A DNA stretch of 48,851 nt from a virus, in IMG/VR virus record IMGVR_UViG_3300042868_004298, positions 1 to 48,851 of that record; one strand, given 5' to 3'. Within the stretch, counting starts at the first letter, position 1, and every line of letters begins with the position of its first letter. The translations under genes and the position numbers were made by a program. A model generated the notes under the pieces. It was not told the DNA's origin, ran no database searches, and saw only the letters and a list, made by a program, of their open reading frames with translations. Shown here piece by piece: positions 8,133-41,077 of this stretch.

Positions 8133-9866
8133 TTATAAAGGTGCGGCTCCGCCTGGACTTCCGCCACCACCTACGGGACTCATCCCAGAAGGCATTTCTC
8201 CGTCCGGATTCATCCCGTCTTCACCTTCCATATCTTCGGGTGGTGTAGTTGCTCCGGACATACCGTCAATATCGCCAGCTATTCCGCTTGCAGTAATACC
8301 TGCAGAACGCAATTCTGCACTCGCATTCAAGTTTGTGCCTTGATCTAAGTTTTCATCACGCCACATTTTTTCGTTTTCTGCAATTTCTTCTGTAGTTAAT
8401 CCTAAGAAACGCTTCATTGCAAAACGTTTTGACATGAATGGAACTTCTACCATACTGGCAAATGTGCCAACACGGGCAGTATCCATTTCTGCTTGACGGT
8501 ATGCAGCAAAGTTCTGTGGTGGATTAAACTTAATATCAAATAGATTGTTATCAACATTGATACCTTTAGTGTGCAAATACAGTTTGAATTCGGTATCAAA
8601 CTGTTCATGCATTAAACTTTGGAGACGCTCACAGTACTTGTTGAATCGCAATTCTTGAATGTATGCTGTTCCAACTCGACCATCATTAAACGAAGATCCT
8701 CCGTCGTCGGCACCAGTAGGTAGATAACTGCTAGGTATGCGTAAAGCCCTAAACAGCTTATTAGTAAAATATCTAAGATCATCAATTTCTCCTAGGTTTG
8801 TGCCGCCAGGTAAAATTTCAACTTTAGATCCACGACCTTCAGCTGTTTGAGGGAAGAAATAATCTTCATTAATGCTTAACGGGTTGTATGCAGCATCGAT
8901 AACGTTTTGTCCGCCACCTACACTGCTAGGAATTCGACGTTGGTTAATTTCATTTTTAACACGCTCAACAAATCCCATGGCCAAGTGGCTCGGCATGTTG
9001 CCCACGTCAATGTAAAATACTCTACGCTCAGGAGCTCGTTGTACACGATAGATAATGATAGCATCTTCAAGCAGTTCTTTTTGCTTGTATACTTTGAAAA
9101 TAGTTTCCATTAAACTATTGCCAAATGGGAAGTTATTATCAATACCTTCGCTCATGCTGATGTGAATCACATGTCTAGCGTCAATTGTAAATTGGTTTGC
9201 GTTCTGTTGAAATCTACTGGTATTTGCATTGTTGGCCATACCGCCAACCATGCCTTTTTGTTGTGCGCCACCGCCGGTGTATGCAGTTCCGCCTGGAGTA
9301 ATATTAGTATTAGTGGGGTTTATCTGAGTTACAGTTAGATTTTGAAAGTTAACATTGAGATCACGGATAACATATTGTTCGGGCTTCTTGCCTTCACTTT
9401 CATTGACAATGACTTTATCTACTTTGCTAGGATCAATGTACATCCATTTTTGTGTTTCTGGATCACGAATAAAAAATACATCGCCGTACTTAAATGCGTT
9501 TCTAACAATCTTAAAAATTCTAATTTGAAATTTATTTGCTTTAGTCCACTGTTGTAGATATTTTTTAATGATCTTAACTTCAGTAGATGTAGATTGATCT
9601 TTGAAGAACACTTGAAACGGTGTTCCATTTTCATCATTCATCTGTGTACAGAATTCTGCCAAGATATCAAAGGCAGCATTAACTTCACTGTCAGTATCCA
9701 TAGAATCGTACTGGCCGTAACGTTCTAATCTGTTTGGGTGACCTGAATAAACATCTGGAAGATAACTGCTGTAGTTTGTCCTAGACATGTTAGGTCTATT
9801 GCCGCTAGACAGCGGGCTCATTTGGCCTGTTGTATTAACGGGATTAAAATATCTTTTCCAACTCAC
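8133..9866 (-). CDS. 20: Portal vertex protein gp20
   Basis: The 577-residue protein starts MSWKRYFNPVNTTGQMSPLS and contains SMDTDSEVNAAFDILAEFCT, VQRAPERRVFYIDVGNMP, GRGSKVEILPGGTNLGEI and SSYLPTGADDGGSSFNDGRV, all conserved gp20 blocks. It forms the dodecameric portal through which DNA is packaged and to which the neck attaches. T4 gp20 has 524 residues; the extra length is a Gly/Asn/Gln-rich insertion around residues 185-225 and a Gly/Pro/Met-rich C-terminal tail. The start codon is GTG at 9866, with GGAG 9 nt upstream. It is 15 nt downstream of the putative tape-measure gene. Confidence 0.96.
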   Translation of the reverse strand: MSWKRYFNPVNTTGQMSPLSSGNRPNMSRTNYSSYLPDVYSGHPNRLERYGQYDSMDTDSEVNAAFDILAEFCTQMNDENGTPFQVFFKDQSTSTEVKIIKKYLQQWTKANKFQIRIFKIVRNAFKYGDVFFIRDPETQKWMYIDPSKVDKVIVNESEGKKPEQYVIRDLNVNFQNLTVTQINPTNTNITPGGTAYTGGGAQQKGMVGGMANNANTSRFQQNANQFTIDARHVIHISMSEGIDNNFPFGNSLMETIFKVYKQKELLEDAIIIYRVQRAPERRVFYIDVGNMPSHLAMGFVERVKNEINQRRIPSSVGGGQNVIDAAYNPLSINEDYFFPQTAEGRGSKVEILPGGTNLGEIDDLRYFTNKLFRALRIPSSYLPTGADDGGSSFNDGRVGTAYIQELRFNKYCERLQSLMHEQFDTEFKLYLHTKGINVDNNLFDIKFNPPQNFAAYRQAEMDTARVGTFASMVEVPFMSKRFAMKRFLGLTTEEIAENEKMWRDENLDQGTNLNASAELRSAGITASGIAGDIDGMSGATTPPEDMEGEDGMNPDGEMPSGMSPVGGGGSPGGAAPL

Positions 9867-9881
9867 TTGGTTACTCCGGAA

Positions 9882-11948
9882 TTATGCAAAAGCATTTCCA
9901 CTTAGGTTTTCAGTTGCTTGAACATTCCTTCTGGAATTTTCTGCAACTTGCCTCATCTGGTATACTAACTCTGCTTGTGTGTTATTTAACTGAGTTACGA
10001 GGCCTTCTAACGCATTTGAAACACTTGCTTGCATCAAGTGTGTGATTTGTTCAGGCTTAAACATACCTTCTATACCGTGTCCAATAATTGGAGTTCCGTT
10101 ACCAAAATTCTCAAATGCTGTTCCTACTGTACCGTAACTACCTGCAGATCGACCTGGTTTATTTTCAGTAAACATACTCCATAAAGCGGTGGCTAATCCT
10201 GTAACAGCTCCTGCTATTGCACCTACGGCTGCGCCGCCTGGACCTCCCATCATCCCTATGCCTGCACCAGTAACTGCTCCTGCTCCTGCTCCTGCTAGTG
10301 TATAGCCGGCTGCTGTTGCTACCTTGCCGGCGGTATCTGCCCAACTAGGTTTAACTAATTCCCATATTTTACCAAACAGTTCTTTAAGAAAAGCTTCAAT
10401 TTTTTTCATTATTTCGTCACGTCCTTCAGGGGAAAATAACTTTTTAATGAACCATTCTATTTGGCGGCCGGCCTCAGGTATCTTTTCAGCGGCCAATCGT
10501 ATAATGTCAAATACTAATGGCATTAACGGTTTCATTGCCCGCCACAATTCAAGACCTAATTCTTTCATAGCTAGTTGCATTGCTGTTAATTCATCAGCTT
10601 CACTTTTCTTAGTGGCAGCAGTTATTTCTGCTGCTTTTCGTTCTTCTTCTAATCGTATTATATTTTCTTCAACACTTAAATTAAGTGTCCCTTGACTGTT
10701 TGTTAAAGTTTGAAGCTGTTTAGCGTGTACTCCCATTGAAGCTGCCATTGGGTCATTAGCTAGCTGCATTGCTTGAATTGTGCCAGCAAGTCTCTGATAT
10801 CCTTTAGCAGATTGTATTTGAGCTATTGCTAGTGTTTTTGTAGAAGATGCAGAATATTCTTCAGCCGAAACTCTTGTATCGTTTGCACGCATTGCTTCTT
10901 TAGTAATTGTATCAGCTAAATCGCCCATTAGTGAAGCAGTTGTTTGACCTTCATCTCCTAGTATTGCCACACCCTGAGCGCCTGCTTTGAAAATTTGAGC
11001 TCCTGCTTTTCCAAATTGAACTGTATAGCGTTGTAAACCGGCAGTTAGTTTATCTCTTTCTGCTTGACTTTTAGACGCCATAAATGCTTGCCAGTTTGCT
11101 TCGCCCGCTTCCTCTTCTAATTTTTTCTGTATGCTTTCTCTAGATTCGCCAGTTAGCCGTGCTAAGAAATCTAATTCTTTTCCATATCTAGCAGCAGATA
11201 CTGCAAGGCCTGCTTGATCAGCTAGTGCTTGTTTAGATATTCCACCAGTTGTTTTAGCATACTGTATAATAGTGTTGTTTGCTTCTTGAACAGTAAATCC
11301 AAGACTTAATAATTCTCGAGTTAGGCCGCCGTCTTTCATAGCCTTAGCAATTCCGTCAAAATTCTTTTTACCTAAACTAGCAGACCCGCCCATTTGTACT
11401 AATGATTCAGAATTATCTTTTAATATTTGAGTATATTCTTGTGTCGTTAAACCTAAAGAAAATGCATCGTCTCTTAGTTGACTTAGATTACCACCTAGAT
11501 TAATACCATTTTGTGATAACGATCGAAACATCTCAAGATTTTCTTCTTGTAGTTTAACTAGTGAAGCAAATAAACCTGCAACAGTTCCTACAATAGGCAA
11601 ATCTTTGAATGCTGTAAAAAAATCACTAACCTTTGCAGTCCCTGCCATAGCGGCTGCACCAAAATTTACTAAATTTCCAGCAGTACCCATGACTCCTGTT
11701 GTTAAATCAGCAAGAGCAGATCCTACAATAGACCCAGCTTTACTCATTTTAGATGTTGACTTTGCAGTGTCTTCTGCTGCATCCCCTAATGCTTTTAACT
11801 TTAACTCGGCGTTGGCAATCATTTTAGGGTCAAGACCAGCCGCCTTCGCTAGTTTAGCAAAGGCAACAGATTGTTCTTTACCTTGTTGTTGATGTAACTT
11901 CAACAAATTCTGGAGCAGTTGCTCCATTACAGCAGTGTCAATGGCCAT
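9882..11948 (-). CDS. Probable tail tape-measure protein (688 aa)
   Basis: A long helical protein: an amphipathic N-terminus (MAIDTAVMEQLLQNLLKLHQ), Ala/Lys-rich coiled-coil-like stretches, a hydrophobic segment near residues 85-115 (LPIVGTVAGLFASLVKL), and a Gly/Ala-rich hydrophobic stretch near 550-592 with GAGAGAVTGAGIGMMGGPGG. Helices combined with membrane-inserting hydrophobic patches are typical of tape-measure proteins, which set tail length and help DNA entry. T4 gp29 has 590 residues. The neighbour across the divergent promoter is the gp26/51 pair, matching the usual link between tail-assembly chaperones and the tape measure. I see no direct gp29 signature, so the call rests on composition and context. 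Confidence 0.6.
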   Translation of the reverse strand: MAIDTAVMEQLLQNLLKLHQQQGKEQSVAFAKLAKAAGLDPKMIANAELKLKALGDAAEDTAKSTSKMSKAGSIVGSALADLTTGVMGTAGNLVNFGAAAMAGTAKVSDFFTAFKDLPIVGTVAGLFASLVKLQEENLEMFRSLSQNGINLGGNLSQLRDDAFSLGLTTQEYTQILKDNSESLVQMGGSASLGKKNFDGIAKAMKDGGLTRELLSLGFTVQEANNTIIQYAKTTGGISKQALADQAGLAVSAARYGKELDFLARLTGESRESIQKKLEEEAGEANWQAFMASKSQAERDKLTAGLQRYTVQFGKAGAQIFKAGAQGVAILGDEGQTTASLMGDLADTITKEAMRANDTRVSAEEYSASSTKTLAIAQIQSAKGYQRLAGTIQAMQLANDPMAASMGVHAKQLQTLTNSQGTLNLSVEENIIRLEEERKAAEITAATKKSEADELTAMQLAMKELGLELWRAMKPLMPLVFDIIRLAAEKIPEAGRQIEWFIKKLFSPEGRDEIMKKIEAFLKELFGKIWELVKPSWADTAGKVATAAGYTLAGAGAGAVTGAGIGMMGGPGGAAVGAIAGAVTGLATALWSMFTENKPGRSAGSYGTVGTAFENFGNGTPIIGHGIEGMFKPEQITHLMQASVSNALEGLVTQLNNTQAELVYQMRQVAENSRRNVQATENLSGNAFA

Positions 11949-12024: not shown

Positions 12025-12891
12025 ATGGAATCTACACAACCTAAACAACGGGTAAACCCACTTACTAGCCTTATGAGGCAACCCAAAATATATATTAAAT
12101 TACCCAGCAATGGGAGATTTTGGTCTCCTAATAGCTTAGATATGTCTCCTAGCAGTGAGTATGCTGTTTATTCAATGACAGCAAGAGATGAGTTATTATT
12201 AAAAACTCCAGATGCTTTAATGAATGGTCAAGCAGTAGTTGATGTTATCCAAAATTGTGTTCCTGCTATTAAAAATGCATGGGAAGTGCCTAGTATCGAT
12301 CTTGATGTTATTTTAATAGCCATAAGATTGGCCACCTACGGAGAAATGATGGAAACTTCTCTTAAGATTGGTGAAGAAGAAATGCACTACAATGTTGACT
12401 TAAGAAAATTATTAGATTCGTTATACGAGACCATCACTTGGGACGAACGAATTAACATAGGAACAGATTTGGCATTGTACATTACACCGGTAAAATATAG
12501 CCTTATTAGTAAAACTAGTATTCAAAATTTTGAAACACAAAAACTAATGAGTCTTGTGAATAATTCAGAGTTGACCGAAGAACAAAAGATTGACACCTTT
12601 CGAGAAAGCTTCAAAAAATTAACAGATATTACTGTGGGTATTATTAACAATTCAGTATACAGGATCGAAAGTTCGGCAGGAACAACCGAAATTCTAGAAG
12701 ATATTACTGAATTCATGGAAAACTGCGATAAGAGTGTGTACGATGCAGTTAAAGATCGATTAGAAAAATTGAGATTGTCTAACACCCTAAAACCAATTAA
12801 AATTCGAGCAACACCCGAAATGATTGCCAACGGTTCTGAGGAAGAAGTTGAAATACCACTAACATTTGATCCTGCAAATTTTTTCGGATAA
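12025..12891 (+). CDS. 26: Baseplate hub protein gp26 (tail-assembly chaperone candidate)
   Basis: The 288-residue protein contains QPKIYIKLPSNGRFW, AVYSMTARDELLLKTPDALM, NGQAVVDVIQNCVPAIKNAW and DLDVILIAIRLATYGEMM, a T4-like gp26 pattern also seen in other phage tail-assembly proteins. In T4, gp26 acts in hub assembly. It ends DPANFFG-stop, and the last codons contain the slippery heptamer A AAT TTT followed by a hairpin covering the stop. A -1 shift would add the downstream 77 codons (see gp51). The start at 12025 has CGGAG 8 nt upstream. It is transcribed divergently from the tape-measure gene. Confidence 0.9.
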   Translation: MESTQPKQRVNPLTSLMRQPKIYIKLPSNGRFWSPNSLDMSPSSEYAVYSMTARDELLLKTPDALMNGQAVVDVIQNCVPAIKNAWEVPSIDLDVILIAIRLATYGEMMETSLKIGEEEMHYNVDLRKLLDSLYETITWDERINIGTDLALYITPVKYSLISKTSIQNFETQKLMSLVNNSELTEEQKIDTFRESFKKLTDITVGIINNSVYRIESSAGTTEILEDITEFMENCDKSVYDAVKDRLEKLRLSNTLKPIKIRATPEMIANGSEEEVEIPLTFDPANFFG

Positions 12892-12902
12892 GGCTCTTAT
12901 CC
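12876..12902 (+). promoter_or_regulatory. -1 ribosomal frameshift signal (slippery heptamer plus hairpin)
   Basis: In the gp26 frame the codons GCA AAT TTT TTC GGA TAA contain A AAT TTT (12876-12882), a canonical X XXY YYZ heptamer. Three bases later GGATAAG (12886-12892) pairs perfectly with CTTATCC (12896-12902) around a GCT loop, and this stem contains the gp26 stop. After slippage the frame stays open for 77 codons to 13113-13115. Confidence 0.75.
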
Positions 12903-13115
12903 CTGTCGCTAGATGAAATAACTCAATTAGCAACTACAATGGAAAAAGAGATAAGGGCCATAAAAGATGAAATTTTTAAGATGTGTTGGTTCATGCGTGG
13001 TGGCATAACCTTAATCGAAATGTATAATACTGACTACAGTGATCGAGAAGTTATTGCCAAGTTAATTGAATCTAATTTAGAAACAACTAACAAAACTAAA
13101 ATGCCGTTCTTTTAA
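12882..13115 (+). CDS. 51: Baseplate hub assembly protein gp51, probably made as a gp26-gp51 frameshift fusion
   Basis: The -1 frame relative to gp26 reads FRIRLLSLSLDEITQLATTM, then EKEIRAIKDEIFKMCWFMRG, ITLIEMYN, and ends KTKMPFF. The 'K.CWFMRG...' core and the 'ETTxKTxxPFF' end are what I associate with the short gp51 proteins of cyanophage-type T4-like phages. The only ATG that would leave a substantial piece is at 12939. It has no Shine-Dalgarno sequence and would lose the first 19 well-formed residues, so independent initiation is unlikely. The fusion would be 363 residues (286 + 77). The stop is immediately followed by the convergent stop of the next gene. Confidence 0.75.
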   Translation, partial: FRIRLLSLSLDEITQLATTMEKEIRAIKDEIFKMCWFMRGGITLIEMYNTDYSDREVIAKLIESNLETTNKTKMPFF

Positions 13116-27900: not shown

Positions 27901-28430
27901 ATTGGATAACGGCATCATCTGGTGCCGAGCCATTGGCTCCTACTAGCCAGAGTTTAAGTTTATCATATTCTCCAATTTTGAACAAAGTTAAAAGTATTAG
28001 TGATGAATTGATTTTTCATCCTACTAATTACAAGATATTATTTGGTAATAAGGCAAGTCCAGTGTTACAAGCAGTGTTTAAGGCATCTAAAAATCCTTAC
28101 AGATCTAGTAGCGACAACGAACTAAAGACTAGAATTTTAACAGCAATTGACAGTTTCTTTTCAATAGAAAACTGGGAGTTCGGCCAAACATTTTATTTTA
28201 GTGAACTGTCTACTTATGTTATGAATATTATGACTCCTGACATTACTAATTTTGTAATAGTTCCTAAACAAAATAATTCTTTTGGTAGCTTATATGAGAT
28301 TAAATGTCAAAGTAATGAAATATTTGTATCTGGCGCAACTATCTTAGATATAGAAATCATAGATTCTATAACTACATCAGAAATTAAGGCATTAGGAAAT
28401 GTTGTTAACACAGTTGGAGGTCAACAGTAA
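24987..28430 (+). CDS. 6: Baseplate wedge protein gp6 (enlarged, 1147 aa)
   Basis: The N-terminus has FDTLRRTMITYLRENYPEDF and IALIDLIAYLGQNVSFRIDL, then NARENFLETAQRRDSVLRLA, the conserved gp6/J-like baseplate block. SQNRMITGEDYNIVPLTAG near residue 425 and a C-terminal SFFSIENWEFGQTFYFSELS also fit. T4 gp6 has 660 residues; the extra length is beta-rich insertions in the middle, between about residues 540 and 900. gp6 forms the ring that holds wedges around the hub and triggers baseplate opening. Its TAA overlaps the next ATG by one base (TAATG), implying coupled translation with the giant gene. Confidence 0.93.
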   Translation: MIPSTTNRLLVAEDWKKIYQSYRNADFKSYDFDTLRRTMITYLRENYPEDFNDFIDSSEYIALIDLIAYLGQNVSFRIDLNARENFLETAQRRDSVLRLARLINYNAKRTVPASGMLKIISLQTTENVVDNNGINLASSIVSWNDSTNANWFEQFITVLNAAMPGSVSFGKPTASGVIDGISTEKYTLNSVIDGVPLYSFSKSINGVQMSFEIVSSDFDTSIVEETPRPGNTFSFVYKNDNRGNGSSNTGFFVQFKQGTLSLSSFNIDNPVPNEVIGINANNINESDVWLWQLNPDGTYPDQAWTKVSNVTGNNVIYNSVSQNNRKLYAVSTREDDQIDLNFADGSFGDLPKGLFRLFYRQSNGLTYSIKPEQMRNVAFSVNYTNAQGQPHSLKVYAALQYTVANSSASETNEAIKIKAPQAYYSQNRMITGEDYNIVPLTAGTDILKVKAINRVSSGISKYYEMSDVSGKYSDVNIFSADGILYKNATEYLFEYPVTNKNEVSYNLKTNLNKVFNLKEFRSAYLENYSRPNLVATNISWVKSTDTTNQTTGYFTIGGFPVPAGIFSSNNLKYGLAGSLIKFIAPIKINTSEPAGSPARQTYFLPNGKLTFTEDSTTTSVKWVKIISIVGDGYNGGKGALSTGVGPVVITGNIPSESIPAEVIPKFVTSLDVDTSTSVINLSMAKKNFGLSLDPLTSTWFIISDTNIDLASPFSLLNQADITDTNRDSSWMVAFVWSGNKYIARYRVTEYIFESDKETSFFVEPYKVNYDYLNDSVIKDKIVVFGINASPTATSGAYLKDDQNWQVDSSVIEIDGYQEPKKIKISFYDKDDDGQIDNPDSFTNIVQPESISAQTTFKNKFVYFEKLTDGLRYRLTSPNKFYACPTENDVPTSMLINGQLFYFYSPSVNVVKTWNAGSTSFDLNTTYFAKPGRSNLKFQYTHKAAENRRIDPSKTNIMDIYLLTKSYDTEFRNWITASSGAEPLAPTSQSLSLSYSPILNKVKSISDELIFHPTNYKILFGNKASPVLQAVFKASKNPYRSSSDNELKTRILTAIDSFFSIENWEFGQTFYFSELSTYVMNIMTPDITNFVIVPKQNNSFGSLYEIKCQSNEIFVSGATILDIEIIDSITTSEIKALGNVVNTVGGQQ

Positions 28431-31400
28431 TGGCTGATAATACTCGCAAGTCAGTTGATTTACTTCCTGCATATTTTAGAACAGAAAAAAACAATAAATT
28501 TTTATCTAGTACACTAGATCAGTTTATGTCTGTTCCTCAATTGAACAGGGTAGATGCATTTGTTGGAAGTAAGAATACTCCTAACTATTCTAGTAATGAC
28601 AGGTATATAGAAGAAACAAATCTTTTACGTCAATCATATCAGCTAGAGCCTGCATTAGTTGTTAGAACATTAACTCAAGAAATTAAAAAAGCATTTGCAT
28701 TAGACGATTTGTTAAATCAAATTGACAGTCATAACGGACATTCGTCGAATTTAGATAGATTATTGCATCCTCAATTCTATTCTTATGATCCTAAAATTGA
28801 TTGGGATAAATTTATTAACTTTCGAGAATATTTTTGGTTACCTACTGGGCCAAATGCAATTAGTATTTCTGGAGATAGCAAGGCATCACAAGTTGAGTAT
28901 ACTGTTACAGATGCTAGCGATGGCATCCAATTCTTTTTTAATAATTCTACTACTTCTCAACAATTAATTCTTTACAGAGGAACAACCTACGTTTTTAATA
29001 TAAAATCTATTCATAATTTTTATATTAAGTACACAAACACGGCTGACTCCGATAACATGTTTGACATGGGAATTACTGGTAATGGTACTAACAATGGACA
29101 AATTGTTGTTACTATAACTAGTCAGACTCCAGAATACTTGTTCTATACATCCGGTGATGATCAACTAGCTACTGGTCCTATTTTTGTAAAAGATCCCGAA
29201 TTTAATTCTTCTATTGATGTCGAAGCGGAGATTATTGGAAAGAAATCTTATACTTCTACAACTGGTGTAGAATTTATCAATGGATTAAAAATTAAATTTA
29301 TTGGTACAGTGTTTCCGGAATTTTATAGAGATACTGAATTTATTGTCGATGGCGTTGGTAAATCTATCAATCTTATTAAGTTTAACGATTTAGCAACTCC
29401 GGATGTTGTTGCCGATTTGTATAATACTAGATTTGATGGCACAAACTTTGATCAATTTCCGTTTGATAACTTTTCAAATATTCCTCTAGTGCCAGAATAC
29501 GTAACTATTAACAAAGCCAGTAGAGATCTAAATCCATGGACACGTTATAATAGATGGTTTCATTCTGATGTTATTAGAGCAGCTGCCGCTGCAAATGGCA
29601 CAGTAGCAGTATATCCTGCTGAATATAGAGCAACTCGCCCTATTGTAGAATTTTTGCCAAATATTCAATTGTTTAATTTTGGTACAACCGCAATCCCTAA
29701 TGTAGACTTAGTTGACACTGTTACAACAAATGCATTCTTGCAGATTGAAAATCAATTTGGATTTTATATTGATGGCGTGTTGTTAGAAGAAGGATTCCGT
29801 ATAATCTTTACCGCTGACACAGATCCATTAGTTCGAGGTAAAATCTTCAGAGTACATTTTTCCTTAGTTGGCACCGATACCAAACTTGATTTAATTTTAG
29901 AAAATGATCAAGTAATCGATGGCTCTTGTGCATTAGTCAAAAAAGGATTAGAACACGGTGGCACATCTTGGTGGTACACCGGTACTATCTGGAATAAAGG
30001 CCAGCAACGATCTAACAGAAATCAGGCCCCACTATTTGATCTGTTTGACGATCAAGGTGCAAATTATTCTGATAAAAATTATACAACTGATTTCGCCGGT
30101 AACAAAATTTTTGGTTACGGCATCGGTACAGGTGCAAACGATCCTATTTTAGGCTTTCCTTTATTATATAGGAATGTAGGAGTTGAAGGAACTTATCTAT
30201 TCAAGAATTATTTTGCAACAGAAGAATTTTTATTGGTAAAAAATAACGTAACTGGGTATGTACCTACTGCCAGTACTTATTTTAAGATCAACGGCGCCTT
30301 AACAAACGTGTGGGTGGAAGCTGCTGATTATAATATTTCATTGATTGACGGAATATATGATGTCCCATTAAATCTTAGCAACAACCCGCTAAATGATCCT
30401 ATCTCTGATTTTACTCTAACTGAATTATCTAACCATGTTAGTTCTATGATCGATCGAGATCCTGATTTTATGGGAGTGTTTCCAGGAGTAAGTAATCTTA
30501 AAGATCTTCCGGAAGTATCTCAATATGGAACAAAATTAATTTCTAACTTAAATTCGTTGGCGTTTGCTCAGCACTTTATAAGTGATGAAGAAAATAGTGT
30601 TATATCTGCAATTAGACTTGTTGGGGAAAATTATTATCAATTTAAGTTAAATTTGATTAAGACAATGTCTTCAGTAGATCAAACGTTGTCACCGATTGAT
30701 GCACTTGATGCATCTCTTCAAATCTTAAATCAAAATAAAACTACCACATTCCCCTATTATTATAGTGACATGATACCGCACGGATCGGGAGCAGTTATTA
30801 GAAATTATACTGTTACTGATTCTAGAAATATAAAATATGCAATCCCTGCAGAGTTTAATCTTACTCAATTAAGCATTATCGGTACACTGGTATATCTAAA
30901 TGGCCGTCAGTTGTTGGTTAACAAAGATTATATATTTGATTCTTATGATACCAACATTGAAATTTTAACTCCGTTAGTTCGTAGTGACGTAGTTACTGTA
31001 AAATATTACAGTGATACGTCTGGTAGTTTTATTCCACCAACTCCTACTAAGTTAGGATTATATCCTAAGTTTGAACCGATAATATTTACAGACGATACCT
31101 ATGCATCAGATGTTCAACAAGTGTTGCAAGGTCATGACGGCAGCATTACTATTTTGTTTGGCGACTATCGAGATGATATTTTATTAGAATTTGAACGTAG
31201 GATTTTTAACAATATTAAAGTTGAATATAGGCAAGATTTGTTTGATGTTAATTCTATATTGCCTGGAATATTTAGAGATCAGGAATATACATATTCTGAA
31301 ATTTTAGATCCCGTCCATCAAGATTTATTAAAATGGAAAACGACATATAGTGTTGAGACTGACGAAAACTTGACCTTTGACATCTCGATACCAAGAACGT

Positions 31401-34400
31401 TTAACTATAGTGCAGTTACTACCGATAGTGGTATCTCTCTACCAGGTAACTGGAGAGCTATATTCAAGATGTATTTTGATACAGACAGACCTCATATTAC
31501 TCCTTGGGAAATGTTAGGATTTAGTTTAATTCCTTCTTGGTGGGAAGATGAATATGGTCCAGCACCGTACACCTCAGGTAACACTATACTATGGGAAGAT
31601 ATTCAAGCCGGCAGAATTAAGCATGGGACCCGAGCAGGAATTAATCCTACCTACATCAGGCAAGGATTACTGAATGTTCTACCAGTAGATGAAAATGGTA
31701 ACTTGGTAGATATTCGAACCTGGGGTCCAATTGGCTCGGCACCTTACTTAGAAACTGCTGATCAACAATGGAAATTTGGTGACAGTGGTCCGGGCGAAAC
31801 TGCCTGGAGAAGGGGCAGTTATTGGCCATTTGCTGTTCAGATTATTATGGCAGTATTAAAACCCGCCGCTTATTCTGCATTGATGTTTGATACTAGCAGA
31901 CTTGTTAAAAATGTAATAGGACAGTATGTTTATTCTGAAGATAATTTATTCTTGAATCAATCTAGAGTGTTATTGCCTTACGAAAAAATTAACGGCACTA
32001 TAGTACTCACGGCCGGATACAGTGTGTTTACAGTAGAAGCTGGACAAATTAGAAACTCTAATTATCTATCTTATATTAAAGAAGAATTGCAAAATTCTAC
32101 ATTTAATTTGATGCACAAGGTTGGCGGATTTGTTAGCAAAGATAAATTAGATATTGTAATTGACTCAGTTAATCCTAACAGTGTTAATCCTGGAATCTTG
32201 TTACCAGTTGAAGATTACCACATTCATTTTAATGTTAGTAATCCTGTAAAAATTGTTAATATTTCTGGATTCCTTATTCAGAAGTTACAAGGTAAATTTA
32301 TTGTACGAGGGTACGATAAAGTAAAACCGTATTTTACAATACTACCTGCAATACATGAAAAGGCTGATACTTATATTACGGTTGGCGGACAAACAGAAGA
32401 TTATTCAGTATGGTCGACAAACGTTTATTACCCAATTGGTCAAGTTATTCTTTATGAAAATTCATTTTACAGAACAACTAATAATCATAATTCTGGTACC
32501 ACATTTAATTCATTGAATTATTCTGCACTTAATGAATTGCCTACAATTAATGCAACAGTAGTTGCATATCCGTTCTCGTTTGACAACACTGCAATTAATA
32601 TTCCGTATACTTCTAGTTACAATTCTATTCAAGAAGTTGCTGATGTAATGGCAGGATACGGCCGCTGGCTAGAAACTCAAGGTTTTGAGTTTGACGAATT
32701 CAGTAACAATATCAGCGAAACATTAAATTGGAAATTTTCAATTAAGGAATTTGCTTATTGGTCTAGTCAAAATTGGGCAGATAATAGTGTAATTGCAATT
32801 AGTCCTTTTGCAAATACTATTAAATTTACATTTCAAGATTCTGTTGTTGACAACATATTTGGTAGTTTTTACGACTATTCATTATTGAAAGCAGATGGAT
32901 TAGCGTTTCCATTTGCAGATTTAAGTATTAGTAGAACTGATGGGCAATGCACAATTACCTCAAAGAATGACCAAGAGGGAATATTCTTTGCAAGTCTAAG
33001 ATTAGTTCAAAAAGAACATGCATTGATCTTGAATAACACAAGTCGATTCAACGATGTTATATATGACATTGATACTGGGTATAGACAACGTCGAATTAGA
33101 TTAGTAGGATTTAAGACTGCTAATTGGAACGGTGATTATTTTAGTCCAGGGTTTGTTTATGATGCTGCTGTTGTTAAAACATGGAAATCGTACGAAGATT
33201 ATGTTGCAGGAGATGTAGTAGAATATACTGGCAGTTATTACTCTCTTGATAGAAATCTACCGGGCAAGGAAATTTTTGATTTTACTGACTGGAATAAGTT
33301 GGGTGCTAAACCAGTAGCTCAATTAATTCCGAACTTTGAGTATAAATTAAATCAATTTGAAGATTTCTATAGTTTAGAAATTGATAATTTTGATATTAGC
33401 CAACAAGAATTAGCACAACATTTAACTGGATATAGTTCAAGGTTATATCTTAATAATATGTTTGTTAACCACATTGCTCAATATAAGTTCTTCCAAGGGT
33501 TTATTAAAGAAAAGGGCACACGTAATGCTCTTGACAAATTAGCAAAGGCAAGTGTACATAATTTGCAAGGACAAATTGATTTTAACGAAGAGTGGGCATT
33601 TAGAATCGGTACGTTTGGTGCGTATGCATCGTTGCAAGAATTAGAATTTCCATTATCTGAATCTAAATTTGTTGACAATTCTCAATTAATTAAGTTTGTA
33701 TCTGAACCCCCTGTTATCGAGTACGACTCTACACTATATATAACTTCTGAATCATTATCAATTAAACCGTTAGATTATAATGTTGACACTACTTTTTTTA
33801 CAAAAGATGCTCTGTTTGATCTAACACCTTTTCAACTACCGGTTGCAGGATATGTTCGATTAGAAGATGTTGATTATACAGTTAAGTCTAAACAAGACTT
33901 ACTAAATTTTATTCCAGGTAAAACTGTTAATCAAGGAGATACATTTTGGGTAGCATTTGACAATAACAATGATTGGGGAGTATATCGTTATACAAGAATG
34001 TCTACTGCAATTATCGGAGTTGCTGATAACATTGCAGGCGAAAGTATTAAATTTACAACCAATGCATATCACGGGTTAACTGTTGGTGATATTATTGCAG
34101 TAACTCGATTTGCAGACGAAGTTAATGGAATTTATATTATTTCTGAAATTAATAGGTTGAATGAAATTGTAGTTAAGACTACTGTTACTGCACCTACTAG
34201 TACTAATGATTTTGGAGTGTTGTTTAAGTTTGTTTCATCTAGATTTGAAAAATTTGATGATTTAATTGATACAAAATATGTTGCTGATATTTTTCCAGGT
34301 AGAAAAATTTGGGTTGACTCTAACGTAACTGGTCAATGGGAAGTTTATGAAAAGATTGATAATTATACACCTAGTATATTAACCAACAGGATTTTATCTG

Positions 34401-37400
34401 ACGGGTCGTTCTATGGTGAAGTAATTATTTCTAAAGAAAATTCTAATTTACTAGTAGTATCGGCGCCTCGATTAGCCGACGATAATGGGTCTGGACAGAT
34501 CTTTATGTACACTAATACTGGCGGTACATTAAAGCTAATCAACAGTTATCCATTGAATCGGGGACTAAATCAATATTATGAAAATGGTGGCCAACCTGCT
34601 GCAAAGTTTGGATTTGGTTTAGATTTTGACGCAGTTGACGGAGTAATAATAGCAGGCGCACCTTATGCATCTAATGTTAACGCCGATGCATCAGGCAGTA
34701 CTAGGTATGTTCAAGCTACTAATTCTGGCATCGGAAATATTAATGACGGTATGGTTGTTATTTCGACTCTTAATGTAACGGGTAATGCAGAACTACGACA
34801 TGTTATGTTGGCCTGTCAGGAACCGGCTAATAATTTAGAATTTGGATACAGCACATTCATTGCGAGTACTGCATCTCAAAAGATTGCATTAGTTGGTGCC
34901 CCTGGACATACAAATTCGACAGGTGCTGTGTTTAGTTATGATGTTGCATATGTCAGATCATTTGATAATTTATTAATTGATGTTAATGCAACTGCAACTT
35001 CTCAAATTAAGTTACCGTCTCCTGGCATATCAGTAGGTGCTAGATTTGGTGATGTTATTGCGGGAGATTTGACCGGTAAGAGAGTTGCAGTCAGCGCACC
35101 GGGATATAGCAATGGCAAGGGTGCAGTATATGTTTACGAAAATACAGGAACTACATCTGATTACACATTTGTGCAAAGTCTACTATGGAATGATACATCG
35201 TTAAACAACACTATTTCGACAGACGGCCAATTTGGCTATGATATAGATATGGACGATTCTGGAAAATATCTATTTGTATCAGCGTTCAATGCATTTGATA
35301 GTGTATTGCAACGTGGTAAGGTTGTTATATATGAATGGACAGGTACACAATATACTGCAACGCAAGTAATTGACAACCCGAGCACTACTAATGGTTTGAA
35401 ATTTGGATTTAGTATTGAAAGTGATTCTTCCGGAAACATTCTAACTGTTACTTCCCAAGGTCCTAACTATTTTGCTAGTGCAAGTTTTGACGAATATTCA
35501 ACTACATTTGATTCTGAATCAACTCGCCTAGGAACCTTAGTTGAAGATTCTGGATCTGCATATGTTTATAACAGATACGAAGAAAAGTTTATTTTTGCTA
35601 GCGAATTATACAATAGTTCAGTTCTACCTAACAGTTCTTACGGATATTCTACTTCTGTAAGTAGAGAAACAATTTATGTTAGTTCTCCAAGACATATTAG
35701 TACTGGCACACTACGTACTGGTGCAATACATATATGGCAAGCAAAAGATCCGGCTTCTAATAGTTGGAATTTGCTCCGTCAACAAACTGAATTAGTTGAT
35801 GTAGAAAAAATTAAACAAGTTAAAACTATTAATGTCTATGCAGATACTGTAATTGATTATCTTGAAATTTATGATCCTATTAAAGGAAAAATTCCTCAAG
35901 CTGCTGATCAAGAAATTAGATTTAAGACATTTTTTGATCCTGCTGTCTATAATACAGGTACTAATACTTTAGCCACAATAGATATGTTAACTTCGTGGAG
36001 TTCGGAACATGTTGGTGAACTGTGGTGGGATCTATCTTCTGTCAAGTACACATGGTACGAACAGGGCGACATTGAATTTAGAAAAAATACATGGGGTTCA
36101 GTATTTCCTGGATGCTCAATTGATATTTACGAATGGGTAAAATCTGATTTCTTACCAGATCAATGGGCTATTGATGCAGATACTACCGCTGGCCTTGCTG
36201 CAAATATAAGTGGTACACCTAGATATGTAGACAATTCTGCATACGTAGTAGAACAGATATACAGTTCAATAATGGATACATTTGTAAATGTTTATTATTT
36301 CTGGGTAAGAAATACTGTGGTTGTTCCAGTGAGACAAGGCCGACAAATATCAGCATTTGATGTCGCTGGACTAATTGAAAATCCAAAATTATTTGGCTTA
36401 AAATATGTTGAACCATTATCTAGTAATAGTATAGCTGTAGTGAATGTTAAAGGATCATTAATTAACGAACGTATTTTCTTGAATATTCAAATTGATGATA
36501 TTGACAACAAGACAAATCGACATACTGAATGGTTATTACTGGAAGAAGATAATAAACATAGTTTACCTACTCCTAGTTTAGAGAAAAAATTAATTGACAG
36601 TTTGTTAGGACAAGACTCACTGGGTAACATTGTTCCCGATCCTATGTTGTCTGATAGACAAAAATATGGGATTGGTATTCGTCCTAGACAAAGTATGTTT
36701 AAGGATAGATTAGCAGCGTTACGTAACTTCTTTGAATATGTTAACGATGTGTTTGCTAATAACTTGATTACAGATTTTTGCAATTTAGATAGACTTAATT
36801 CTAAAGAATCTATTCCTGATCCAGCGGTCTCCGAATATGATATAGTTGTAGGAGATACTGACCAGCGTAACGAAATAAACATTAGTAAGGTTAAATCAGC
36901 AAGTGTATCTTGTACAGTTGAAAACGGTCGTATTACTAGTGTTAAGATTCTAGATCCAGGATTTGGATATGGAAAATTAGATCCATTAACATTTGATGAT
37001 GTTGGGGTTGCGTTAACATGGCGAGGCCCATCCGTTGCAGTTTTTAACGATCAAAATAACAGTAAATTGGAATCTACTATTGACGAATTAGGTAGAATTA
37101 TTGATGTTCAAATTGTCAATAGTGGTTCGGGATATGTGACTACTCCAGAAATTTTTGTTAGACCGTATACTGTAATTGTTTCTTCCGATGTTACTTCTAG
37201 AGGACGTTGGGCAAAATATGTATTAGGTGATACTGGTTGGGCTAAAATTCAAACACAAAGTTTTGACACTACTTTATATTGGGATTTTACAGATTGGGTA
37301 TCTGCTGAATTTAATCAGTACCAAAGATTGGCTGCTATTGTAGGGCAACGTGCTGAACTAGATGGGTTATATCTAACAGCCGGAGACTATGTAAAAGTAT

Positions 37401-40400
37401 TAAACAACGGTGCCGCCCGCTATATAATTCTTAGAAAAACAGCATTAGGTGTACAGGGTACATATGATGTTAATTTTGATATTTTGTATAGCGAAAATGG
37501 CACATTATACATCAAAGATTCTATATGGAAATTAGCAAATTCTCAATTAGGATGGGATCAACTTTCACCGTATGACACTAATTTCTGGGACCAAACGGCT
37601 GATACAGAATTAAAAAATATTATACTTTCTTTGAGAGATGATATTTTTATTGGCAACTTAAAAGTATATTGGAATAAATCTTTCTTTGCAGCGGTAAAAT
37701 ATGCATTGACTGAACAAAAATTCTTAGACTGGGCATTCAAGACTAGTTTTATTTCTGTACATAATAAAGCTGGAGAATTAACCCAACGATCAGTTTATAA
37801 ATTTCAAGATGCACAATGGTACGAAGATTATTTGAATGAAATCAAACCTTATCATACAAAAATTAGAAATTACTATCTTGCATATGATGTAACTGAACCT
37901 ACTAATACCTATACTACGGACTTTGATTTACCAGTTGTATACGATAACGGCACTAATTCTTTTATTACTTTATCGGAAAACGAACCACTGGCACAAACAA
38001 CATATCCTTACAAAGGATGGTATGATAATAGAACATTAGTAGTTGATTCAATTGTTGTAGATGAAGCCGGCACTGGATATATTGAAAATCCAATAGTACA
38101 AATTATCCCTGCATCTGGAGACAATGTTACTAGACATGCAACCGCAGAAGCCGTACTATCTTCAGGAAAGATTGATAGATTTGAAATTATAGATTCTGGT
38201 GAAGGATATACATTAAATCCTACGGTATTAATTACAGGAGGCGGACTAACACCTACAGATACCGTAGCACGGGCTACTGTACATTTAGTAAACGGAAAAG
38301 TTAGATCAAATCTAATAGGAATGAAATTTGACAGGATTTCTAAATCTAGATTAATTACAAACAAATACTATACTGATAACTTTGTAGGAGACGGAGTAAC
38401 TAATCAATTTGATTTATCTTGGCCATCTCATCCAGATAAAACAGAAATTGTATTAAAAATAAACGGAGTACCGGCTGCATCTTCGTCGTACGAAATTGAA
38501 GACTACACAGATAATGCCAATGGTTATACGCAAAATTATACTAGATTAATTTTATCTAATGTGCCAGAAGCTGACGCAAGTATTCGTATTACATATCTAA
38601 AGAGCATAGACATTTATTCTGCGTATGATAGGATTGCAAACTATTACGACAATGTGCCGTTAGATTCTCCTGGTGCAAATCCTGCTGAAAATTATGCTCA
38701 ATTAATGTCAGGTATGGAATATCCAGGAACTGAAATTATTTCTCAAAATTTATGGTATGATTTTACATGGGATTCTAGCCCGTATAGTTCATTACCATGG
38801 GATAAACAAAGTTTCGACACAACTGATTTAGATACAATTATTGACGGAGGCTCTGTAGCAACTACTGGTACAACTAAAGTATTTTCTACAGCAGCCGGCA
38901 TTAATCCGGAAGATATTATATTGGATGGTGATACATTTATTTCTCCTATAAGAAGTTATGCTCCTGAAGAAATGATTCCAGGAGAGTTAAGAGAATCAAT
39001 TGGAATTAGTGTATTCAACAGGAGTGTTTCTGGTAGTGCAACTATCTATAATCAATTACAACATGCATATGCCGGAGTTAACACTGATATTAATTTAAGT
39101 ATTTTATCTCCATCTGTTGGGTCTATTTCAGTAACTTATAATAACGAACCATTAATTAGAAATGCTGATTACGATATTGACTTTGCAACTAAGAAGATAA
39201 CAGTTTATGCAAAATCTGTCTCTGGAACAGTTGCAGTTGTTTGCATGGACGTTGGTGGCACCGGATTTATTAGTCTAAATTCTAATGTTACCGAAGGTTC
39301 GACTATTGGCGCAGTTCTTGGCGATTGTCAATATTCACAAGCTAAGAGCGTGTATGTAACGTTAAATGGTCAACGGGTATATACAGCTGGCGCCTTCCTT
39401 GGACAATCAGTCTATTATGTATTTGGAGAATCTAATCCAGGGATCGATAGTAGAGCTAAAGTTACTATATACGGATTGGGTACTGACGGAAAGAATACAA
39501 TCACCGCAGCATTTTTTACATCTGCATTTAAGGGATTCAGTGAAGTATTTGAACAGCAATACTTTAATCTAAAAGAAGATGACAGAGTTATTACATTAAC
39601 TCAACCGCCCGGCACACTAGGTCCAGCGTCTGCTAACTCTATCGTAGAATTTAATAGAAAGAGATTAACTCCTCCTAACACAACCTATTATGAAATTACT
39701 AATGTAAATCAAACTACATTCTTAATAAGTTCTAAGGAAGTGTATCCACCAAATTCTTTTGATAAGACCCGCATTGAAGTATTCATTAATGGTAAGCAAG
39801 TTATTCCTACAGATTATTATCTAGATGATATTAACAATAATATTGTATTTGAAGATGATACTTTTGCAATGGGAGATGTGGTAGCTATTACTTCATTGAT
39901 TGATTATGATTATTTAATTAGAGGTAATGATTTAGAGATTGCTAGTAGAATTTTCCTACCAACAGAAAACTATCTAAGAATTTTAACATTTACAAATCAC
40001 GATGCCGCACTAATTAGGACTGAAGTTTATAAAGCAAGTTCTACAAGAATGTACAAGATATCTAGAAAAGTACTAAACGATAATTTAGTATGGATGACTG
40101 TGGGAGATAAAACATTGCTCGGAGGAACTGATTTTGAAGTGGTAGGCGATGGTATGACAGTTATGGTTGACCAGGCTATTCCGTTTAATGCCGAAGACCA
40201 AGTTACTATTACTAGTTTTGCTCAAGTCACTGCTGGTAAGACAGTTGGTTGGAAAATTTTTAGAGATATGATTGGCCGTACACACTTTAAGCGATTAAGC
40301 AATACTGATACTACCTACTTAGTTGTTCCATTGGGTCTCACTGATACAGAAATACATGTAGAGAATGGTGATGTGTTGCCCAATGCAGATAGCAAATCTA

Positions 40401-41077
40401 ATAGCCCTGGTATTATTTTTATTGCAGGCGAGCGCATTGAATATCTTGAAAAGAATGGAAATATTTTATCTCGCATTAAGAGAGCTACAATGGGCACTGG
40501 TGCAAAAGAACATTACATGATAGGAACTTGGGTATTTGACCAAGGCAAGCAGCAGACTATTCCTTATCAAGAAAGTGTAGTAATTGAGTCAACAGTGACT
40601 ACTGTATCGACATCTTCCGTCACTATAGAATTAGATACTAGTAAATTTGTATTTAGAGATAGCATCAACTTACATGATCAAGTAGAAGTTTACTATGGCG
40701 GCCGACTACTAGAAAAACCTACAAAGGTAGGAGTTGACGTGTTAGTCCACGATGCTGCATCGTATTATAATCCTATAAATATGACTGTAAAAGCTCCAGA
40801 ATTCACTATTACTGGATCGATTACAACTGCGACACTTACTATTACTACTGCAACCCTTGCAAGCGTTGAAATTAAAATTGTTCAACGTACCGGAAAAATA
40901 TGGTCTACTTTCTCAGGTAAACCAATGTTTGAACAGTTTACTCCGCAGGCTGCATTTATTAATAAGAAGGAAGCAATTTCGCCAGATCAATTATACTATG
41001 GTGGTGATCCAGTATTGAGATTCGGTGATGGAAGCGCTCTACTATTAGATGATGGAAGAGAAATTAAGGGTTATTAA
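28430..41077 (+). CDS. Giant baseplate protein, gp7-like by position (4215 aa)
   Basis: The largest gene here. The N-terminus (ADNTRKSVDLLPAYFRTEKN, NRVDAFVGSKNTPNYSSNDR) directly follows gp6, where T4 has gp7 (1032 residues). Two chitin-binding-like segments with a 'Y..G.V..Y...Y' pattern lie near residues 1330 and 1584 (YEDYVAGDVVEYTGSYYSLD). Seven FG-GAP-like units span about 2000-2440 (LVGAPGHTNSTGAVFSY, AVSAPGYSNGKGAVYVY), suggesting a propeller. 'GxGY...P' units occur near 2840, 2895, 3210 and 3253. The C-terminal quarter has 'F.GDG.T..F.L....' and 'VxING' fibre modules. No signal peptide or protease motif is seen. Probably a wedge protein carrying peripheral adhesion domains. Confidence 0.75.
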   Translation: MADNTRKSVDLLPAYFRTEKNNKFLSSTLDQFMSVPQLNRVDAFVGSKNTPNYSSNDRYIEETNLLRQSYQLEPALVVRTLTQEIKKAFALDDLLNQIDSHNGHSSNLDRLLHPQFYSYDPKIDWDKFINFREYFWLPTGPNAISISGDSKASQVEYTVTDASDGIQFFFNNSTTSQQLILYRGTTYVFNIKSIHNFYIKYTNTADSDNMFDMGITGNGTNNGQIVVTITSQTPEYLFYTSGDDQLATGPIFVKDPEFNSSIDVEAEIIGKKSYTSTTGVEFINGLKIKFIGTVFPEFYRDTEFIVDGVGKSINLIKFNDLATPDVVADLYNTRFDGTNFDQFPFDNFSNIPLVPEYVTINKASRDLNPWTRYNRWFHSDVIRAAAAANGTVAVYPAEYRATRPIVEFLPNIQLFNFGTTAIPNVDLVDTVTTNAFLQIENQFGFYIDGVLLEEGFRIIFTADTDPLVRGKIFRVHFSLVGTDTKLDLILENDQVIDGSCALVKKGLEHGGTSWWYTGTIWNKGQQRSNRNQAPLFDLFDDQGANYSDKNYTTDFAGNKIFGYGIGTGANDPILGFPLLYRNVGVEGTYLFKNYFATEEFLLVKNNVTGYVPTASTYFKINGALTNVWVEAADYNISLIDGIYDVPLNLSNNPLNDPISDFTLTELSNHVSSMIDRDPDFMGVFPGVSNLKDLPEVSQYGTKLISNLNSLAFAQHFISDEENSVISAIRLVGENYYQFKLNLIKTMSSVDQTLSPIDALDASLQILNQNKTTTFPYYYSDMIPHGSGAVIRNYTVTDSRNIKYAIPAEFNLTQLSIIGTLVYLNGRQLLVNKDYIFDSYDTNIEILTPLVRSDVVTVKYYSDTSGSFIPPTPTKLGLYPKFEPIIFTDDTYASDVQQVLQGHDGSITILFGDYRDDILLEFERRIFNNIKVEYRQDLFDVNSILPGIFRDQEYTYSEILDPVHQDLLKWKTTYSVETDENLTFDISIPRTFNYSAVTTDSGISLPGNWRAIFKMYFDTDRPHITPWEMLGFSLIPSWWEDEYGPAPYTSGNTILWEDIQAGRIKHGTRAGINPTYIRQGLLNVLPVDENGNLVDIRTWGPIGSAPYLETADQQWKFGDSGPGETAWRRGSYWPFAVQIIMAVLKPAAYSALMFDTSRLVKNVIGQYVYSEDNLFLNQSRVLLPYEKINGTIVLTAGYSVFTVEAGQIRNSNYLSYIKEELQNSTFNLMHKVGGFVSKDKLDIVIDSVNPNSVNPGILLPVEDYHIHFNVSNPVKIVNISGFLIQKLQGKFIVRGYDKVKPYFTILPAIHEKADTYITVGGQTEDYSVWSTNVYYPIGQVILYENSFYRTTNNHNSGTTFNSLNYSALNELPTINATVVAYPFSFDNTAINIPYTSSYNSIQEVADVMAGYGRWLETQGFEFDEFSNNISETLNWKFSIKEFAYWSSQNWADNSVIAISPFANTIKFTFQDSVVDNIFGSFYDYSLLKADGLAFPFADLSISRTDGQCTITSKNDQEGIFFASLRLVQKEHALILNNTSRFNDVIYDIDTGYRQRRIRLVGFKTANWNGDYFSPGFVYDAAVVKTWKSYEDYVAGDVVEYTGSYYSLDRNLPGKEIFDFTDWNKLGAKPVAQLIPNFEYKLNQFEDFYSLEIDNFDISQQELAQHLTGYSSRLYLNNMFVNHIAQYKFFQGFIKEKGTRNALDKLAKASVHNLQGQIDFNEEWAFRIGTFGAYASLQELEFPLSESKFVDNSQLIKFVSEPPVIEYDSTLYITSESLSIKPLDYNVDTTFFTKDALFDLTPFQLPVAGYVRLEDVDYTVKSKQDLLNFIPGKTVNQGDTFWVAFDNNNDWGVYRYTRMSTAIIGVADNIAGESIKFTTNAYHGLTVGDIIAVTRFADEVNGIYIISEINRLNEIVVKTTVTAPTSTNDFGVLFKFVSSRFEKFDDLIDTKYVADIFPGRKIWVDSNVTGQWEVYEKIDNYTPSILTNRILSDGSFYGEVIISKENSNLLVVSAPRLADDNGSGQIFMYTNTGGTLKLINSYPLNRGLNQYYENGGQPAAKFGFGLDFDAVDGVIIAGAPYASNVNADASGSTRYVQATNSGIGNINDGMVVISTLNVTGNAELRHVMLACQEPANNLEFGYSTFIASTASQKIALVGAPGHTNSTGAVFSYDVAYVRSFDNLLIDVNATATSQIKLPSPGISVGARFGDVIAGDLTGKRVAVSAPGYSNGKGAVYVYENTGTTSDYTFVQSLLWNDTSLNNTISTDGQFGYDIDMDDSGKYLFVSAFNAFDSVLQRGKVVIYEWTGTQYTATQVIDNPSTTNGLKFGFSIESDSSGNILTVTSQGPNYFASASFDEYSTTFDSESTRLGTLVEDSGSAYVYNRYEEKFIFASELYNSSVLPNSSYGYSTSVSRETIYVSSPRHISTGTLRTGAIHIWQAKDPASNSWNLLRQQTELVDVEKIKQVKTINVYADTVIDYLEIYDPIKGKIPQAADQEIRFKTFFDPAVYNTGTNTLATIDMLTSWSSEHVGELWWDLSSVKYTWYEQGDIEFRKNTWGSVFPGCSIDIYEWVKSDFLPDQWAIDADTTAGLAANISGTPRYVDNSAYVVEQIYSSIMDTFVNVYYFWVRNTVVVPVRQGRQISAFDVAGLIENPKLFGLKYVEPLSSNSIAVVNVKGSLINERIFLNIQIDDIDNKTNRHTEWLLLEEDNKHSLPTPSLEKKLIDSLLGQDSLGNIVPDPMLSDRQKYGIGIRPRQSMFKDRLAALRNFFEYVNDVFANNLITDFCNLDRLNSKESIPDPAVSEYDIVVGDTDQRNEINISKVKSASVSCTVENGRITSVKILDPGFGYGKLDPLTFDDVGVALTWRGPSVAVFNDQNNSKLESTIDELGRIIDVQIVNSGSGYVTTPEIFVRPYTVIVSSDVTSRGRWAKYVLGDTGWAKIQTQSFDTTLYWDFTDWVSAEFNQYQRLAAIVGQRAELDGLYLTAGDYVKVLNNGAARYIILRKTALGVQGTYDVNFDILYSENGTLYIKDSIWKLANSQLGWDQLSPYDTNFWDQTADTELKNIILSLRDDIFIGNLKVYWNKSFFAAVKYALTEQKFLDWAFKTSFISVHNKAGELTQRSVYKFQDAQWYEDYLNEIKPYHTKIRNYYLAYDVTEPTNTYTTDFDLPVVYDNGTNSFITLSENEPLAQTTYPYKGWYDNRTLVVDSIVVDEAGTGYIENPIVQIIPASGDNVTRHATAEAVLSSGKIDRFEIIDSGEGYTLNPTVLITGGGLTPTDTVARATVHLVNGKVRSNLIGMKFDRISKSRLITNKYYTDNFVGDGVTNQFDLSWPSHPDKTEIVLKINGVPAASSSYEIEDYTDNANGYTQNYTRLILSNVPEADASIRITYLKSIDIYSAYDRIANYYDNVPLDSPGANPAENYAQLMSGMEYPGTEIISQNLWYDFTWDSSPYSSLPWDKQSFDTTDLDTIIDGGSVATTGTTKVFSTAAGINPEDIILDGDTFISPIRSYAPEEMIPGELRESIGISVFNRSVSGSATIYNQLQHAYAGVNTDINLSILSPSVGSISVTYNNEPLIRNADYDIDFATKKITVYAKSVSGTVAVVCMDVGGTGFISLNSNVTEGSTIGAVLGDCQYSQAKSVYVTLNGQRVYTAGAFLGQSVYYVFGESNPGIDSRAKVTIYGLGTDGKNTITAAFFTSAFKGFSEVFEQQYFNLKEDDRVITLTQPPGTLGPASANSIVEFNRKRLTPPNTTYYEITNVNQTTFLISSKEVYPPNSFDKTRIEVFINGKQVIPTDYYLDDINNNIVFEDDTFAMGDVVAITSLIDYDYLIRGNDLEIASRIFLPTENYLRILTFTNHDAALIRTEVYKASSTRMYKISRKVLNDNLVWMTVGDKTLLGGTDFEVVGDGMTVMVDQAIPFNAEDQVTITSFAQVTAGKTVGWKIFRDMIGRTHFKRLSNTDTTYLVVPLGLTDTEIHVENGDVLPNADSKSNSPGIIFIAGERIEYLEKNGNILSRIKRATMGTGAKEHYMIGTWVFDQGKQQTIPYQESVVIESTVTTVSTSSVTIELDTSKFVFRDSINLHDQVEVYYGGRLLEKPTKVGVDVLVHDAASYYNPINMTVKAPEFTITGSITTATLTITTATLASVEIKIVQRTGKIWSTFSGKPMFEQFTPQAAFINKKEAISPDQLYYGGDPVLRFGDGSALLLDDGREIKGY

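Follow-up and report, generated by a model that had tools for sequence, protein, structure and literature searches.

Phage lambda makes a short and a long tail-assembly chaperone, G and GT, from one gene by a -1 frameshift near its 3' end, and this G-T frameshifting has been described as conserved in long-tailed phages "except T4" (Atkins et al. 2016 review, PMC5009743). For T4-like phages, the tail assembly chaperones were identified by Vladimirov, Gautam and Davidson (2022, Virology 566:9-15); as relayed by papers citing that study, some T4-like phages dispense with frameshifting and have a short gene plus a fused, long one (PMC10885494), and polyT slippery sequences are known in the TAC-N genes of T4-like phages (PMC12846349). 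In phage Adele (Vandenendeviridae/Andersonviridae), the conserved polyT motif at which a -1 shift takes place, close to the 3' end of TAC-N, is GTTTTT (PMC12846349). Compared with T4 gp51, cyanophage and marine vibriophage gp51 is missing the first ~200 residues and has a similar C terminus (Sullivan et al. 2010, PMC3037559). The frameshift cassette of E. coli dnaX combines an upstream Shine-Dalgarno (SD)-like element, a heptamer and a downstream hairpin. The slippery heptamer of lambda is G GGA AAG. Frameshifting is reportedly conserved in several T4-like groups, and the 2022 study is said to assign T4 genes 26 and 51 to TAC-N and TAC-NC, respectively.

We analyzed a 48,851-nucleotide stretch of viral DNA (IMG/VR record IMGVR_UViG_3300042868_004298, positions 1 to 48,851; here called the window), in which the initial annotation had read a -1 frameshift between gp26 and gp51 as a design not previously described, to its knowledge, for T4 gp26/gp51. 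The novelty is not supported, the polyT slippery sites of TAC-N having been published in 2022 according to the citing papers (PMC12846349, PMC10885494). Since the 2022 paper identified the T4-like chaperones, the concept of a frameshifted T4-like chaperone is, as those papers present it, already in print, and the window is a further example. Our literature searches covered gp26/gp51, jumbo phages and cyanophages and found no description of a frameshift besides the 2022 work.

Results

The window is T4-like viral DNA with genes for a portal (phrog_213), a major head protein, a baseplate wedge and a baseplate hub/tail lysozyme, as well as SbcC/SbcD-like (gp46/47-type) proteins and a late sigma factor (gp55-type). 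One ORF of 4215 codons lies at 28430-41077 (+), 3' of the baseplate genes. The gene for the gp26-like short tail-assembly chaperone (TAC-N) occupies 12025-12891 (+; frame 0) and encodes 288 aa up to the stop TAA at 12889-12891, its 3' end reading GAT CCT GCA AAT TTT TTC GGA TAA. The protein matches PF12322 (T4_baseplate) with 29.5 bits against a cut-off of 24.5, and phrog_150 with an E value of 3e-10 (PHROG); a six-frame search of the window gave 27.4 bits for the gene, which is the single PF12322 match in the whole 48.9-kb record, itself possibly a fragment. The -1 frame is closed upstream by TAG at 12867-12869 and is open from there to TAA at 13113-13115. The C-terminal domain that it encodes (TAC-C; 12885-13115, +) comprises 76 residues, RIRLLSLSLDEI...KTKMPFF, and the predicted fusion (TAC-NC) has 363 residues with the junction ...FDPANFF-RIRLLSLSLDEI....

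Two overlapping heptamers precede the stop. At T TTT TTC (12879-12885, +), the P-site Phe codon TTT and the A-site Phe codon TTC would both re-pair with TTT in the -1 frame. This heptamer is present in 118 of 120 surveyed sequences, the other two having T TTT TTT and T TTT TTG, and in 30 of 32 clusters, again with one case of each variant. Both variants hold the same position, with eight T in a row (T TTT TTT T) in Melnitz-2 (L123, 3185-3200) and T TTT TTG in RHph_I1_9 (L122, 3164-3175). The base preceding TTT TTC is T in 120/120 surveyed sequences, while the codon that carries this fixed T varies (AGT, AAT, TCT, GCT, GAT, CAT, CGT, or TAT). The initial annotation had taken the overlapping A AAT TTT (12876-12882, +) as the slippery site; it is indeed there, but it recurs in only 6 of the 32 clusters and is not the conserved site. 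A slip on either heptamer would give the identical fusion (...NFF-RIRLL...).

All 25 IMG/VR loci and 80/80 cyanophage-type loci have an in-frame T TTT TTC at the corresponding position, as does P-SSM2, and it stands right before the gp26 stop in 121Q, Munch, PA5oct, Phosso, Atu_ph07, Vibrio 2.275, phi-pp2 (KVP40 species), phiAS5, avDM6, Bhz51, RaK2, and XaC1; conservation thus spans the range from cyanophages to coliphage 121Q. The bare string TTTTTTC is not rare in the AT-rich window (19 occurrences against 21.8 expected); among the 14,970 codons of the longer ORFs in the window, the in-frame form has a single occurrence, the one at the gp26-like 3' end. The naive joint probability of the heptamer over the 32 clusters, calculated with each gene's own codon usage and leaving out three distant loci without the T6 run, is ~10^-30.7, a value that overstates independence because the clusters share ancestry. 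The loci had been collected by gp26 protein similarity and not by the heptamer, with a mild bias in that one of the six peptide patterns covered the site.

The three loci without a T6 run are those of FEC14 (Ackermannviridae), Vibrio D510 and Pseudomonas Cygsa01, and the latter two have a TAATG stop-start overlap in place of the heptamer. The initial annotation had named related phages that lack the slippery site and start gp51 independently as evidence against a frameshift; such phages are confined to a distant branch, since these three loci cluster together in the tree (94/98). In FEC14 (L121, 3230-3260), T6 is missing and there is no ATG, GTG or TTG near the stop (TTTAATTTTTGAA), and a TAC-C-like frame is open; it would be reached either from an ATT start or by another type of shift.

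Frameshift cassettes have a structure about 5 to 9 nt after the heptamer, and folding of the 100 nt 3' of T TTT TTC detected a 10-bp stem at 6 nt, formed by a 5' arm at 12892-12901 (GGCTCTTATC) and a 3' arm at 12950-12959 (GATAAGGGCC), both on the plus strand, around a 48-nt loop with a nested hairpin. Across 14 sequences, 85.7% of cells are paired, compared with at most 47.9% when the pairing is slid, and 12 cells show double changes, a result reached in 0/500 shuffles. Compensatory versions are GGCTTTTGTC/GGCAAAAGCC in loci L008 and L015, GGCTTTTGAC/GTCAAAAGCC in L024 and GGCTCTTTGT/ACAAAGAGCC in Atu_ph07. Two loci, L016 and L023, lack the stem, and it is weak in phages of the 121Q/RaK2 type; in L018/L021 and PA5oct its place, again 6 nt from the heptamer, is taken by other stems. 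No description of the covarying stem was found in the literature searched, where the 2022 study is represented by the papers citing it.

The 7-bp hairpin GGATAAG-GCT-CTTATCC, which includes the gp26 stop and which the initial annotation had proposed as the stimulator, does exist at 12886-12902 (+), but conservation gives it no support in that role: it abuts T TTT TTC directly (spacer of 0 nt), and across the relatives 70.4% of its cells are paired against 70.5% in shuffles, with no double changes. It competes with the conserved stem at 12892-12901/12950-12959, whose formation excludes it.

In cyanophages, an independent 11-bp hairpin follows the heptamer by 5 to 6 nt and shows 23 double-change cells (0/500 shuffles). 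The cyanophage-type loci (L034-L118) also carry an SD-like GAGG/GGAGG exactly 10 nt 5' of the heptamer in 68 of 76 cases; the Glu codon at this site is GAG in 68/76, versus 31% elsewhere in the gene. The upstream SD-like element, an optional feature of the cassette, is absent in the window and its clade.

Comparisons between close relatives give the -1 frame a dN/dS of 0.07 to 0.30 where computable, dS being saturated in several pairs, and over the same bases the other two frames give values mostly above 1. Judged by these ratios, the -1 frame is under purifying selection. Conservation of the protein begins at the slip site, with the pattern FFR[IMV]RLL (also given as FFR[IM]RLLSL), ahead of any ATG. 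The G/GT type is characterized by an X XXY YYZ heptamer close to the 3' end of TAC-N and by selection on the open -1 frame that follows, and this locus has both. Chaperones of this type are further defined by a gene beside that of the tape measure and by a set ratio of the two forms, which bind the tape measure and the tail tube and do not enter the virion.

Discussion

The locus very probably encodes a -1 frameshifted tail-assembly chaperone, one gene with two products (probability about 0.93). The fusion of a gp26-like protein to a gp51-type C-terminal domain, already proposed in the initial annotation, is supported by the conserved heptamer and the selected -1 frame, and the accompanying idea of a pair of lambda G/GT-type chaperones is likewise favored by the sequence. 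The sequence evidence consists of the -1 frame and the selection acting on it, the heptamer, the stem, and homology to T4 gp26 and gp51; slippage itself and its rate we infer. Most ribosomes would end at the TAA at 12889 and release TAC-N of 288 aa, while a minority would slip by -1 on T TTT TTC (12879-12885), where both Phe tRNAs would re-pair, and translate 76 more codons to yield TAC-NC of 363 aa. The 10-bp stem (12892-12901/12950-12959), set off by its 6-nt spacer, would lie where the mRNA enters the paused ribosome and could aid the slip. By analogy with lambda G/GT, TAC-N may coat the tape-measure protein, and the minor form, through its TAC-C tail, may recruit the tail tube, an assembly role that we infer from the lambda system.

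That the -1 ORF might instead be a separate gene ("gp51") with its own start, translated through reinitiation or coupling at the gp26 stop, is suggested by the ATG that many relatives have near the stop (at codon 2, 3 or 4), by the TAATG overlap of the divergent, heptamer-less Cygsa01 and Vibrio D510, and by the annotation of cyanophage gp51 as a separate ORF of ~58 aa. An annotation program would call such an ORF in the window at 12939-13115 (+), from the first ATG of the -1 frame. That ATG, however, is codon 19 after the slip, and no SD-like motif was seen before it, in line with the initial annotation, which had found no SD-supported start in this frame. Its equivalent is missing in the relatives L012 and L014, and in these two, as in L029 and L125, the first 30 codons of the -1 frame contain no ATG, GTG or TTG. 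An independent gp51 start in the window clade was rejected because L012, L014 and further relatives have no start codon close by. Moreover, the codons before the ATG are conserved at the protein level, and a separate gene would leave the conservation of the heptamer without a reason, so we regard this explanation as very improbable. Even so, the label "gp51" is apt in the sense used for marine phages, where it denotes a ~58-aa ORF resembling the C terminus of T4 gp51 (PMC3037559).

Slippage of the polymerase on the T6 run would generate mixed mRNAs, from some of which the -1 frame is read by standard translation, and the conserved run of six T, extended to eight in Melnitz-2, would be in keeping with it. 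Nearly all relatives, however, hold exactly T6 followed by C in a fixed phase, the longer runs that favor polymerase slippage have not been selected, and ribosomal -1 shifts are known to be aided by features such as the stems at 5 to 6 nt and the SD-like element that cyanophages have 10 nt upstream; transcriptional slippage is accordingly disfavored and, to our judgment, just as improbable as a separate gene. A ribosomal slip on A AAT TTT stimulated by the 7-bp hairpin at 12886-12902, which is a variant of the frameshift reading and not an alternative to it, would use two elements that are both present in the window and would give the same product. It stands slightly better than the preceding two explanations but is still improbable, given that A AAT TTT is limited to 6/32 clusters and that the hairpin, with no double changes and pairing no better than in shuffles, excludes the covarying stem.

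A ribosomal slip on T TTT TTC, the reading that we prefer, can be set beside the known systems. Like the window, lambda G/GT derives its short and long chaperones from one gene by a -1 shift near the 3' end. The slippery heptamers of the two differ, no sequence similarity was shown, and the candidate tape-measure gene of the window is divergent and not directly downstream. This neighbor, a protein of 688 aa encoded at 9882-11948 (-) between the portal gene (8133-9866) and the chaperone gene, has no family match in Pfam or PHROGs and is, by its position only, a plausible tape-measure candidate; the RaK2 protein at the same position is annotated as "similar to tail tape measure protein." The Adele-type systems belong to other phage families and shift at GTTTTT, not at T TTT TTC. 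As for the dnaX cassette, the cyanophage loci have all three of its elements, whereas the window clade has no SD-like element and uses the long-range stem.

T4 itself differs from the window in that gp26 and gp51 are encoded separately, but it shares PF12322, and its gp51 holds the C-terminal domain in frame. Both T4 proteins match PF12322 (gp26 with 215.6 bits and gp51 with 177.5 bits) and are therefore paralogues; at the FF position, T4 gp26 reads GAG TTC TTT GAG and therefore lacks a slippery site. Residues 198-249 of T4 gp51 align with the -1 domains of the cyanophages and of the Straboviridae type (phiAS5/phi-pp2 type), starting at the FF position, with scores of 32.6 and 33.9 (0/150 shuffles). 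The TAC-C of the window clade matches the cyanophage and Straboviridae-type TAC-C (0/150 column shuffles each), but a direct comparison with the T4 gp51 C terminus is little better than shuffles, 8 of 150 of which reach its score. The TAC-C of the window clade is longer, and its link to gp51 runs via the cyanophage and Straboviridae-type domains. The gp26 and gp51 of T4 and Proteus form one clade (95/95), which sits in a weakly supported part of the tree shared with frameshifting Straboviridae.

The T4 data fit a duplication of the frameshifting gene followed by an in-frame fusion in one copy. T4 would then be derived: gp26, which has no slippery site, would have remained the short form, and gp51 would have become the in-frame long form. 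Because gp26 and gp51 are paralogous and the last ~52 residues of gp51 match the -1-frame domain of cyanophages and other T4-like phages, frameshifting appears to be the source of the long chaperone in most of the T4-like phages examined, and a duplicated, fused gene its source in T4. The shortness of cyanophage and marine vibriophage gp51 (PMC3037559) would likewise be accounted for by the frameshift. Our results agree with the 2022 resolution of the T4 exception and extend it, in that one heptamer reaches from cyanophages to 121Q and the T4 pair has the look of a derivative that arose by duplication.

A wider evolutionary account is offered tentatively, with the odds somewhat against it. The window clade and its nearest jumbo-phage relatives might use an undescribed type of stimulator, a stem of 9 to 13 bp that begins 6 nt after U UUU UUC and encloses a loop of about 42 to 51 nt in the downstream coding sequence, while cyanophages would have evolved, at the same site, an SD-like element (10 nt upstream) and a compact 11-bp hairpin. 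As the cyanophage cassette is a different one, the heptamer would have persisted through a turnover of its stimulators, and T4 would have dropped frameshifting by gene duplication.

Many T4-like genomes annotate TAC-C as a separate "gp51" or as a hypothetical protein, or leave it unannotated. The sequence could explain how T4 gp51 can be essential, yet absent from the particle (PMC3004832).

The AlphaFold2 model of TAC-N (pLDDT 82.3, pTM 0.76) has low confidence at the C terminus, where the slippery site lies, and that of TAC-C (pLDDT 83.4, pTM 0.56) is a helical domain. In BFVD, the TAC-N model matches T4-like baseplate hub proteins (E value of 1e-21); in the PDB, it has no significant match to a solved chaperone, which says little. 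The same model (12025-12888) also matches uncharacterized large-phage proteins of 450 to 550 aa from Erwinia Special G (A0A191ZCG4), Ralstonia RP12 and RSF1, and Klebsiella Eowyn (E values of about 1e-4 to 1e-6), which, going by the modeled fold, are possibly the tail-assembly chaperones of those phages.
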